A stretch of 64,000 nucleotides of DNA from Salinirussus salinus (GTDB taxonomy: Archaea; Halobacteriota; Halobacteria; Halobacteriales; Haloarculaceae): the NCBI RefSeq assembly GCF_009831455.1, contig NZ_WOWO01000003.1, positions 1-64,000 of the forward strand. The letters are read 5' to 3'. Of the stretch, positions 5,302 through 39,814 are shown one piece after another. Within the stretch, counting starts at the first letter, position 1; the number at the start of each line of letters is the position of its first letter. A program made the translations under genes and the position numbers. Below the pieces are notes generated by a model. The model had not been told where the DNA came from. It saw only the letters and a list, made by a program, of their open reading frames with translations, and ran no database searches.

Positions 5302-5377
5302 GGGCACGTAGCTCAGTCCGGACCAGAGCGTCGGACTTCTAATCCGACGGTCGAGGGTTCAAATCCCCCCGTGCCCG
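5302..5377 (+). tRNA. tRNA-Arg (anticodon TCT)
   Basis: A cloverleaf can be drawn: acceptor GGGCACG with CGTGCCC and discriminator G, D-arm GCTC/GAGC, anticodon stem TCGGA/TCCGA around CTTCTAA with anticodon TCT at 5338-5340, and a T-arm with TTCAAAT loop. It reads AGA/AGG codons. The CCA is not encoded. The T-stem is GAGGG against CCCCC, leaving one A.C mismatch (positions 50/64). Both downstream tail copies carry CCCTC, which would pair fully. No intron is seen. Confidence 0.95.
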
Positions 5378-5595
5378 CTTCTGCGACGAGCGCCAGCGAG
5401 GCGTGCGGAACGAACCACGCGAGGATTTGAACTACGCGAGACGAACGGAGTGAGTCTCGCAATCGAGTTCAAATCCCTCCGTGCCCGCTTCTTCGACGAG
5501 CGGACGCGAGGAGCGAAGCGGCCCGTGGGATTTGAAGTAGACGGCAGCGAGTGAAGCGAGCCGACGGCGTGGTTCATAATCCCTCCGTGCCCGCT
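5378..5595 (+). repeat. two tRNA-Arg 3'-end tail units with inverted T-arms
   Basis: After the tRNA, its 3' end (T-loop to acceptor, ...GTGCCCGCT) recurs twice. The GTGCCCG starts are at 5371 (in the gene), 5481 and 5587, so the spacings are 110 and 106 bp. Each extra copy is preceded by an inverted T-arm. In unit A, 5421-5433 pairs with 5466-5479 and is extended by GCGAGAC (5436-5442) with GTCTCGC (5454-5460). In unit B, 5527-5536 pairs with about 5573-5583. Both units start with CT(G/T)CGACGAGCG. Nothing here encodes a full second tRNA. Confidence 0.85.
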
Positions 5596-23624: not shown

Positions 23625-23772
23625 GCGAGCGGCTCCGCCGCTCGCGCTTTTTTCGCCCACGTTTTTTTGCCGAGCGGGTTGCGGGCCGACGGCCCGCAAC
23701 CGCATGCCGTGGCGGCTCCGCCGCCACGCGGTGCGCGAGCGTAGTGAGCGCGCCCGGGGCGAAAAAAGGTGG
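23625..23772. repeat. palindromic intergenic repeat, copy B (probable bidirectional terminator)
   Basis: GCGAGCGG-CTCCG-CCGCTCGC (23625-23645) runs into T6-CGCCCACG-T7, then the same two stems as copy A (GGTTGCGGGCCG at 23677-23701 and CGTGGCGG/CCGCCACG at 23708-23728) and GGCGAAAAAAGGTGG. It is almost identical to 15812-15929, except for a 10-bp difference before the last block and a different leading stem. It lies between the plus-strand stress-protein gene and the minus-strand tRNA-Ser. Confidence 0.85.
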
Positions 23773-23774
23773 TA

Positions 23775-23858
23775 CGCCAGGACTGGGATTTGAACCCAGA
23801 ATCCCATACGGGAACACGCTTTCCAGGCGTGCGCCTTACCAGATTCGGCCATCCTGGC
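23775..23858 (-). tRNA. tRNA-Ser (anticodon GGA)
   Basis: Read on the minus strand: acceptor GCCAGGA with TCCTGGC and discriminator G; anticodon stem CACGC/GCGTG around CTGGAAA, anticodon GGA at 23822-23824; a long variable arm (TTCCCGTATGGGA region) marking a class II tRNA; T-loop GTTCAAATC. It reads UCC/UCU serine codons. The CCA is not encoded. Unlike the other two tRNA genes here it has no tail copies; palindromic repeat copy B begins 2 bp past its 3' end. Confidence 0.95.
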
Positions 23859-37961: not shown

Positions 37962-38401
37962 GCTTCGTCGACGCGCTGCGGTCGCGGGTCAGATTCGGCA
38001 AGTTCGTCTCCGTCGGCGTGGTCGGCGCGGTCTGTGACACGACCGTTCTCGTCACCCTGACACAGCTCGGGTTCCTGCCCGAGGTCGCGACGCTCGTCGG
38101 GATCGAGACGGCCATCCTGGTGATGTTCGCGGTCAACGAGAACTGGACGTTCGCCGACCACGGGGCCGCCGACGGGCGGTCGCTTCTGGGCCGGCTGGCC
38201 CGCTCGCACGGCGTCCGCGCGGCGGGGAGTCTCACGCAGTTCGTCGTCTTCGTCGCCATCTTCCGTGGGTTCCCCCTGACTGTCCCCCTGGCGGGGGTCA
38301 ACCTCTGGCTGATCGCCGCGAAGGGCGGCGGGATCGCCGTGGGGATGGTGGTCAACTACGTCTTCGAGAGCCTCTTTACCTGGCGGGTTCACCGGGACTG
38401 A
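37958..38401 (+). CDS. GtrA family membrane protein
   Basis: A 147-residue protein with four hydrophobic helices, typical of GtrA, which is thought to flip or hold undecaprenyl/dolichyl-phosphate sugars. It has the family marks FGKFVSVGVVGAVCDT, LFAVNENWTF (here MFAVNENWTF) and the terminal VVNYVFESLFTWR. Start ATG overlaps the stop of the glycosyltransferase gene. The two form an operon of a well-known type in surface glycosylation. The next element is initiator tRNA-Met, 54 bp on. Confidence 0.9.
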   Translation: MSFVDALRSRVRFGKFVSVGVVGAVCDTTVLVTLTQLGFLPEVATLVGIETAILVMFAVNENWTFADHGAADGRSLLGRLARSHGVRAAGSLTQFVVFVAIFRGFPLTVPLAGVNLWLIAAKGGGIAVGMVVNYVFESLFTWRVHRD

Positions 38402-38424
38402 AATCGACCGAGGGGAAACGCAAT

Positions 38425-38432
38425 CCTTAACC
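38425..38432 (+). promoter_or_regulatory. TATA-like box of tRNA-Met
   Basis: CCTTAACC lies 24-31 bp before the 5' end of the tRNA at 38456, the right spacing for an archaeal TATA box. Confidence 0.45.
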
Positions 38433-38455
38433 GGCGGACTCGGTTACGAGCGGGT

Positions 38456-38530
38456 AGCGGGATGGGATAGCCAGGAGATTCCGGCGGGCTCATAACCCGC
38501 AGACCGGTGGTTCAAATCCACCTCCCGCTA
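38456..38530 (+). tRNA. initiator tRNA-Met (anticodon CAT)
   Basis: The acceptor AGCGGGA pairs with TCCCGCT and ends with A. The anticodon CAT is at 38491-38493 in CTCATAA, with a stem of consecutive G:C pairs next to the loop (GGG/CCC). The A1-U72 pair plus GGG:CCC in the anticodon stem are initiator features. The T-arm is GGTGG/CCACC around TTCAAAT. The sequence follows the known haloarchaeal initiator tRNA pattern AGCGGGATGGGATAGCC. The CCA is not encoded. Two extra copies of its 3' end follow. Confidence 0.95.
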
Positions 38531-38809
38531 CTTCTCACGAACTCACTGCTTAGCGCCGAGTTCCATCTCGGCGCGCTCCGTGAGTGAGTGGTTGCGGTGT
38601 GGGTTTGAACCGGACGACGAGCGACCACCGGGAGCGAAGTCGGCGTGGTTCAAATCCACCTCCCGCTACTCCTGATGAACAACTCCCGGGCGGCGCGTTT
38701 CATCGCGCCGCGTTCTGTGAGCGCGTGATAGCGACGAGTGGATTCGAACCTGGCCGCGAGGGAGCGGAGCGACCGAAGCGGACGTGGTTCAAATCCACCT
38801 CCCGCTACT
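38531..38809 (+). repeat. two tRNA-Met 3'-end tail units with inverted T-arms and covarying hairpins
   Basis: The 26-bp string GTGGTTCAAATCCACC + TCCCGCTACT occurs at 38507 (in the tRNA), 38645 and 38784, spaced 138 and 139 bp. Each extra copy is preceded by an inverted T-arm: 38599-38611 pairs with 38647-38659 and 38738-38750 with 38786-38798. Before it lies a GC hairpin, GCGCCGAG/CTCGGCGC (38553-38574) in unit A and GCGGCGCG/CGCGCCGC (38690-38711) in unit B. The stems differ on both sides but pairing holds; the loops are TTCCAT and TTTCAT. Confidence 0.9.
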
Positions 38810-38935
38810 CCCGGCGGTACGCCGGTGCCCGTCGGCCGCTTCGTGGTGCGTTCCGAGCGACTGGGGACGAAATTGGGAAAGCCTCGGGTGACAATTGAGA
38901 AAACTGTTTTCAGGTGCTGATCCCTGCTCCGCGGT

Positions 38936-39814
38936 ATGGAACGGAGAACGTTCCTTTCGGTTGGCAGTGCATCGGTCCTCGCACTCACGGCTGGCTTCCC
39001 CTCCATCGCTGCCGGGACCACCGCGGACGGGCCGGCAGCCGTCGTCGAAGCGTACTACCGCCGTGCACGTGCGGCTGAAGACAGTGAGACCTTCGCCGAA
39101 CAGGTCCCGGAACTCACACACAGCGTGTCGCCGCTCTCGGAGCTCGCGACGGACGCTCCGATGGCCTTCGACGGCACGCTGCGCCAGGAACTCGTCGACG
39201 TCGAAGTGGTCGAGGAGGACGTCAGTGCCGAGCGGATCGAGGACATCTCGGACTTTTTCGCCGCGTCGGTCGGCGAGGAGGGGATCGCGCAACTCGCCGG
39301 GAACAACGCCGTGGTGGCGGTCACGCTCGAGGCCGACGGGGTCATCGGCGGGCGGGTCGCAAAGGAGTGGCTCGTCGCGCCGGAGGACGGCGAGTGGCGA
39401 CTGGTCTGGTTCGACGGCAGGAACAGCCCCCGGGCGGCCGTCAGGGAGTTCTTCCGCCAGGTGAACGCGGCCGGGAGCTTCGAGGCACTCGACGAACCCG
39501 TCGATGACCTTTCCCACAGCGTCTCGCCGCTCCCGAGCGTCGTCGAGTACAACCCCCGCTTTTTCGCCGGGCTGCGCCGCCAGGAACTCGCCGGGACGGA
39601 AGTCGTCGCGGAGAACCTCGACGCCGGGGGGCTCGCCGACCGCTTCGGTCTGTTCGCCAACTGGGCACGGCGGGCGGACATCGAGCCGATTGCGGGGGAG
39701 AACGCGGTCGTCGCGGTGTCGCTGCGCGACGACTCAATCGGGGCCGGGGAGTTCGTCCAGGAGTGGCTCGTGGCGCCCGAGGCTGGCGAGTGGCGGGTCG
39801 TCTGGTTCCAGTAG
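38936..39814 (+). CDS. secreted protein with two tandem NTF2/SnoaL-like domains
   Basis: A 292-residue protein. The N-terminus MERRTFLSVGSASVLALTAGF is a Tat-type signal (RR at 3-4). The remainder is an internal duplication: repeat one (about 34-160) and repeat two (about 163-292) share VSPL blocks (LTHSVSPLSEL and LSHSVSPLPSV), RQEL, and the terminal EWLVAPExGEWRxVWF. The pattern resembles NTF2/SnoaL-like pockets, but I could not confirm the fold. It is downstream of the tRNA tail array (126 bp) and convergent with the DUF5789 gene. Unknown role. Confidence 0.75.
   Translation: MERRTFLSVGSASVLALTAGFPSIAAGTTADGPAAVVEAYYRRARAAEDSETFAEQVPELTHSVSPLSELATDAPMAFDGTLRQELVDVEVVEEDVSAERIEDISDFFAASVGEEGIAQLAGNNAVVAVTLEADGVIGGRVAKEWLVAPEDGEWRLVWFDGRNSPRAAVREFFRQVNAAGSFEALDEPVDDLSHSVSPLPSVVEYNPRFFAGLRRQELAGTEVVAENLDAGGLADRFGLFANWARRADIEPIAGENAVVAVSLRDDSIGAGEFVQEWLVAPEAGEWRVVWFQ

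Follow-up and report, generated by a model that had tools for sequence, protein, structure and literature searches.

Tandem hairpin units that repeat the 3' end of their host tRNA behind haloarchaeal tRNA genes

Behind a tRNA gene of Escherichia coli lie the tyrT repeats, also known as rtT RNA: units in tandem, every one of which closes with a copy of that tRNA's 3' end, and whose RNA is released as the tRNA transcript matures. They are confined to one enterobacterial locus, and we know of neither a host-matched inverted T-arm nor a genome-wide family for them. Among the systems known to us, they appear to be the nearest precedent for the tails described here, which are also tandem and whose units likewise contain the host tRNA's own 3' end. 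Another parallel is the integron attC site, recombined by an IntI-type integrase, in which sequence is variable, the folded single strand is conserved and the array grows at one anchored end. The tails also keep a folded single strand while their sequence varies, but they have no gene-bearing cassettes and their anchor is a tRNA gene. Integrative elements that use tRNA genes as sites for tyrosine recombinases (PMC8371274) share with the tails a direct copy from a tRNA loop to the gene end, a displaced distal copy and exact presence or absence. The tails differ from them in having units of only about 75–165 bp without an integrase gene or cargo between the copies, in a conserved hairpin pair and in building up in tandem at many tRNAs. 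Haloarchaeal MITEs, SMRs and PATEs, described in Haloquadratum (PMC3119063), are likewise short non-coding elements, some with palindromes; however, they are dispersed sequence families, whereas the tails keep to tRNA 3' ends and are conserved in structure. Finally, t-elements, which are tRNase Z substrates, are also haloarchaeal structures of tRNA origin next to stable RNA genes, but these are tRNA-like folds upstream of 5S rRNA, while the tails hold only nt 53–73. No tRNA was called in the tails of the stretch studied here. We found no earlier description of hairpin tails in the open-access papers searched.

The window, a stretch of 64,000 nucleotides from Salinirussus salinus (NZ_WOWO01000003.1, positions 1 to 64,000), contains three tRNA genes: initiator tRNA-Met (iMet) at 38456, tRNA-Arg at 5302 and tRNA-Ser at 23775 on the minus strand. 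An earlier note had reported that the 26-bp end of the iMet gene, GTGGTTCAAATCCACCTCCCGCTACT, occurs three times, and both sequences and coordinates were correct: the exact occurrences lie at 38507–38532, 38645–38670 and 38784–38809, spaced by 138 and 139. The GC hairpins with loops TTCCAT and TTTCAT and the inverted T-arms were also present as described, and the array at tRNA-Arg, to which the note's 'same kind of tail array' refers back, is also real, with two units (Table 1). Compared with dinucleotide shuffles, iMet unit 1 is more stably folded as RNA by 6.0 s.d. (z -6.0); for unit 2 the difference is weaker (2.1 s.d.). Rfam, at gathering and permissive thresholds, returned only the tRNA itself plus chance-level matches; its RtT family had no match at the gathering threshold in the window, nor at E<=10 in 38400–38900. 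Two mechanical ORFs, 38584–38898 (+) and 38650–39021 (-), cross the iMet array and might enter annotations as spurious proteins.

Table 1. Positions of the tRNA genes with tail arrays, and of the parts of these arrays, in the window
Feature	Position	Strand	Basis
Host tRNA gene, initiator tRNA-Met (CAT)	38456..38530 (end 38530/1 by caller)	+	ARAGORN, Rfam RF00005
R1, copied segment, tRNA nt 53-73	38510..38530	+	copy boundaries from 65 mixed + 54 iMet tails
Tail unit 1, with T-rich start, H1, H2 and copy R2	38531..38668	+	
Hairpin H1, unit 1	38535..38591	+	fold, covariation
Apical H1 of unit 1: GCGCCGAG-TTCCAT-CTCGGCGC	38553-38574	+	loop TTCCAT
R', inverted T-arm of unit 1, GTGGGTTTGAACC; 5' arm of H2	38599..38611	+	
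Hairpin H2 of unit 1 (R' - core - R2)	38599..38667	+	covariance model E 2e-14 (sequence itself in model), covariation
R2, exact copy of tRNA nt 53-73	38648..38668	+	
Tail unit 2	38669..38807	+	
Apical H1 of unit 2: GCGGCGCG-TTTCAT-CGCGCCGC	38690..38711	+	loop TTTCAT; covariation
R', inverted T-arm of unit 2, GTGGATTCGAACC	38738..38750	+	
Hairpin H2 of unit 2 (R' - core - R3)	38738..38806	+	covariance model match, covariation
R3, exact copy of tRNA nt 53-73	38787..38807	+	
tRNA-Arg (TCT), host of second window array	5302..5377	+	ARAGORN, Rfam
First tail unit of tRNA-Arg, with inverted T-loop (5424-5432) and nt 53-73 copy (5467-5487)	5378..5487	+	
tRNA-Arg tail unit 2, 3'-end copy decayed	5488..5593	+	covariance model match 5526-5595

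The tRNA-Ser gene has no tail array but a T-run and GC hairpins instead. This different downstream element, in which a T-run and GC hairpins are followed by a mirrored A-run, is a design repeated between tRNAs: it was seen at 23700–23775 (minus) and behind the tRNA genes Lys-CTT (L002), Pro-GGG (L043) and Arg-CCT (L010), three of the four being without a tail. Possibly it serves as a bidirectional terminator, or it represents another class of element downstream of tRNAs. Elsewhere in the window's genome, a dense group of a dozen atypical, low-scoring tRNA genes (G000:C4:596052-597722, L032), all without tails, probably belongs to a mobile element or virus.

About one third of the haloarchaeal tRNA genes that we sampled carry hairpin cassettes ending in the tRNA's own 3' end. 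Nearly all tRNA genes (191) were located in four genomes, and the last 20 nt of each tRNA were sought 40–220 nt downstream at a cutoff of at least 16/20. A copy of the own 3' end was found behind 66 of the 191 genes: 19/54 in the window's genome, 22/49 in Haloferax marinum, 18/43 in Natrinema zhouii and 7/45 in Halosimplex pelagicum. The controls gave 3/191 upstream and 13/1910 with the 3' ends of other tRNAs (own versus other, odds ratio 77, P ~ 1e-60). Scanning with a conserved 5' stretch of the iMet gene yielded 120 named haloarchaeal loci; 117 of these, including the window's own, were usable, and 60 carried a tail at a threshold of at least 16/24. In 65 tails of mixed tRNAs, identity to the own tRNA was ~0.95 over nt 53–73, against ~0.3 before and ~0.45 after this segment, and 54 iMet tails behaved alike. 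The limits of the copy are sharp, from G53, the first T-loop pair, to discriminator base 73 (21 nt). The 5' strand of the T-stem is absent; the copied segment is what completes the tRNA from the T-loop onward. Tailed tRNAs carry one to five cassettes with a unit length of about 75–165 bp; these are non-coding and without gene content, the ORFs over the arrays being mechanical only.

Each tail is a tandem array. A unit opens with a T-rich start and hairpin H1; next come an inverted T-arm (R') and a covarying core, and nt 53–73, copied in direct orientation (R), close the unit. The unit folds as two hairpins, H1 and then H2, with R', the variable core and R forming H2. R' is matched to its host. 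In non-iMet units, R' opposite nt 61–64 matches the own host at 0.70 per nt compared to 0.53 for other hosts (0/5000 permutations), and exact matches occur in 11/42 for the own host versus 4.5% for other hosts. In most iMet tails, R' reads GTGG when the tRNA has CCAC and GTAG when it has CTAC. Across 15 iMet H1 hairpins, selected for at least four inner pairs with the inner four pairs as the selection criterion, 88% of pairs are kept compared to 70% when shuffled and 19–57% when slid, and 22 double changes are seen versus 8 expected. Seventeen iMet H2 hairpins, picked by architecture and a recognisable R' from related source species, have 92.2% of cells paired, against 82.8% when shuffled and 26–45% when slid; pairing in the core helix reaches 98.5%, and each of its four pairs shows double changes. 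RNAalifold recovers identical H2 helices unprompted. At columns 16/45 of this alignment A.G occurs in 11 hairpins and G.A in 6, and A.A or G.G never (17/17 swap, Fisher 8e-5); in a wider, hand-classed set, the swap holds in 28/31.

The cores fall into a few architectures that recur over tRNAs and genera: one has a 4–6 bp helix under a GA-RC-GNA-GY-GA cap, one is of GGGA/GACC form, and one holds an AGTCG/CGTCT element with a U.U mismatch. GA-capped stems number 163 on the sense strand and 20 on the antisense strand. Two GA-capped hairpins with the same cap type also lie at ~8801 and ~8834 (-) of the window, outside any tRNA tail. Inspected by eye, the GA tandems sit between paired stems without a 3-nt bulge, and we rejected K-turn, K-loop and H/ACA readings of the core. 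Altogether, the conservation of shape over sequence, on one strand only, points to the importance of a folded single strand; RNA and single-stranded DNA would both be compatible with the sense-strand caps and with the A.G/G.A swap.

The earlier note had taken compensatory differences between the two iMet units as a sign of selection on a folded structure and had seen the initiator tRNA as a target of regulation. Covariation was indeed found in H1 and H2 in the larger alignments and supports a constrained folded strand; however, exchange of whole cores can also give compensatory differences between units. As for regulation, tails stand behind most kinds of tRNA and about half of haloarchaeal iMet genes are without one; nothing points to initiator-specific regulation, and this part of the proposal is not supported.

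The family is restricted to haloarchaea and to tRNA 3' ends. A covariance model built from the 17 iMet H2 hairpins gave 11 matches at E<=1 in the window's genome, comprising nine tRNA tails, one match antisense to a tail and one elsewhere (E 0.74). Among 120 genomes of the phylum, the model matched 17/19 haloarchaea and 0/101 others at E<=0.01. When matches were checked in eight genomes, 45 of 48 shared the strand of a tRNA gene and lay at most 700 nt downstream of it. A second, independent search pattern, with 25–55 nt between an inverted T-loop and a T-loop, was found in 46/53 haloarchaeal genomes, up to 17 times, and in 15/242 other genomes, once each among the matches listed. No cassette was found in the phages searched, and pattern matches in viral contigs were chance-like and were not accepted as cassettes. 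On plasmids, a cassette occurred only behind one tRNA-Met gene of a Haloferax plasmid. The 323-kb plasmid pHGLR2 of Haloferax gibbonsii carries a tRNA-Met gene with a tail array (L426, 2949–3167).

Units are gained and lost. At the Halorubrum locus L106, the tail is followed by a flank that in L112 and L162 directly adjoins the tRNA, with a shift of 134 bp, equal to the unit length; L101 and L110 likewise differ by the exact presence or absence of a unit. A five-unit array behind a tRNA-Ser TGA gene (G063, L447) has units 2–3 duplicated as units 4–5, and unit duplications were also seen at the tRNA-Thr gene of the window's genome and in Haloarcula sebkhae. In Haloarcula and Haloferax, H1 and core modules have been recombined between units. 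Near-identical cores at different tRNAs of one genome were found in 9/394 pairs versus 2/1143 other comparisons (P 1.5e-4), a result resting on 11 pairs. In 37 arrays with at least two units, the proximal copy was nearer to the tRNA sequence in 27, equal in 9 and worse in 1 (P 5e-6), where distal matches of 14–15/21 may include chance. Orthologous units diverge by 0.125 per site in R compared to 0.199 in spacer; copy R is thus only mildly constrained and, unlike the tRNA, drifts. In draft contigs of Haloferax prahovense and H. gibbonsii (L144, L149), the array shows the iMet gene doubled around an N, probably a misassembly brought about by the repeats.

Our preference, plausible though short of probable, is that the tails are site-anchored hairpin cassettes that regenerate the tRNA end, rather than functional trailer RNA. 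The family resembles an element that is anchored on tRNA genes and accumulates by itself. We propose that cassettes arrive or multiply through site-specific recombination at the T-loop, carried out by a putative enzyme; each incoming cassette would rebuild the tRNA end and displace the old nt 53–73 segment downstream, where it would then decay. The recognised substrate would be the folded sense strand, as single-stranded DNA or RNA, which could account for structure rather than sequence being conserved. Arrival or multiplication of this kind fits the exact limits at T-loop and gene end, the regenerated tRNA, the decay of displaced copies, unit presence or absence and the spread within genomes. 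In particular, copy limits at nt 53 and 73 are the pattern expected if recombination in the T-loop restores the gene to its end, and the T loop is listed among the integrase-site positions of tRNA genes (PMC8371274). The mild constraint on copy R counts in favour as well. Its acceptor half (nt 66–73) showed no pairing signal upstream of R'; hairpin pairing therefore does not explain why this half is copied, and a duplication origin explains it better than hairpin function.

Several points count against cassettes. Neither a recombinase or transposase nor an autonomous relative is assigned to them; any cassette that moves to another tRNA needs a way to obtain an R' matched to its new host; and cassettes were not found in the phages searched and occur on plasmids only at Haloferax tRNA-Met. 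Replication slippage between the 21-bp repeats could also be the source of exact loss and duplication, and slippage or conversion may lie behind the presence or absence of units and the shared cores. A bolder form of the proposal, in which a putative dedicated recombinase serves a class-wide mobile system by inserting shape-defined cassettes at the T-loop and rebuilding the tRNA, with outward array growth and R' adapting to its host, seems to us unlikely.

A somewhat less plausible explanation, yet a serious alternative, is that the tail is a functional trailer RNA, co-transcribed with the tRNA, whose hairpins act in termination, in 3' processing or as a small RNA. The sense-strand structure, with its excess of GA caps and the fold of iMet unit 1, would be expected of such an RNA, as would the double compensatory changes and the A.G/G.A swap (17/17 in A1 hairpins), which is unlike a product of palindrome repair. 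The position of the tails directly behind the tRNA on the same strand, their host-matched R' and a copy end that coincides with the mature tRNA end agree with this explanation too; in one variant, R' would have two possible partners, the T-arm of the tRNA itself and the copy in the tail, and the choice between them could act as a folding switch. However, the units show no wobble bias (G.U 41 versus A.C 41), whereas tRNAs of the same genomes do (30 versus 13); in the R'/R arms overall, 35 G.U and 52 A.C were counted, most A.C lying at the stem edge. Patchy presence at the same tRNA among relatives and the drift of copy R also speak against a trailer function. Transcription into the tail is itself uncertain, since T4 runs, a possible termination signal, directly precede the tail in 33/50 iMet cases. 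T4 within 20 nt was found at 33/50 tailed versus 33/67 untailed iMet genes, while T5 runs are rarer behind tailed iMet genes (2/50 versus 13/67, P 0.02), which counts in favour of a trailer. Tails as simple substitutes for T-runs were considered and found weak, given T5 at P 0.02 and no clear relation for T4.

That the tails are a neutral by-product, with slippage duplicating the tRNA 3' end and its flank and template switching at quasi-palindromes perfecting the hairpins, free of function or mobility, is improbable. The exact direct repeats, the unit duplications (tRNA-Thr, Haloarcula sebkhae and the G063 tRNA-Ser) and the compensatory arm changes could all arise in this way. By contrast, the recurrence of the same families of structured cores at many tRNAs and genera is not what such a process predicts, the A.G/G.A swap and the sense-only GA caps are not products of template switching, and the 5' strand of the T-stem was left uncopied. 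Scars of ordinary proviruses or integrative elements, left as attachment-site remnants by repeated integration and incomplete excision, are very improbable: tRNA 3' ends are standard integration sites and the copy limits resemble attachment sites, but the units, present at about one third of all tRNA genes and seen in no phages, have a narrow size, a conserved two-hairpin plan, covarying cores and no gene content.

The tails adjoin some of the most conserved genes of the cell, yet we found no RNA family and, among the open-access papers searched, no paper describing them. If they are mobile, as we tentatively favour, they would be selfish cassettes of a new kind, anchored on tRNAs and recognised by shape. 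If they are trailer RNAs, they would add a new layer to archaeal tRNA biogenesis. Both readings can be put to the test in Haloferax, a genus that is amenable to genetics and whose members carry iMet arrays.
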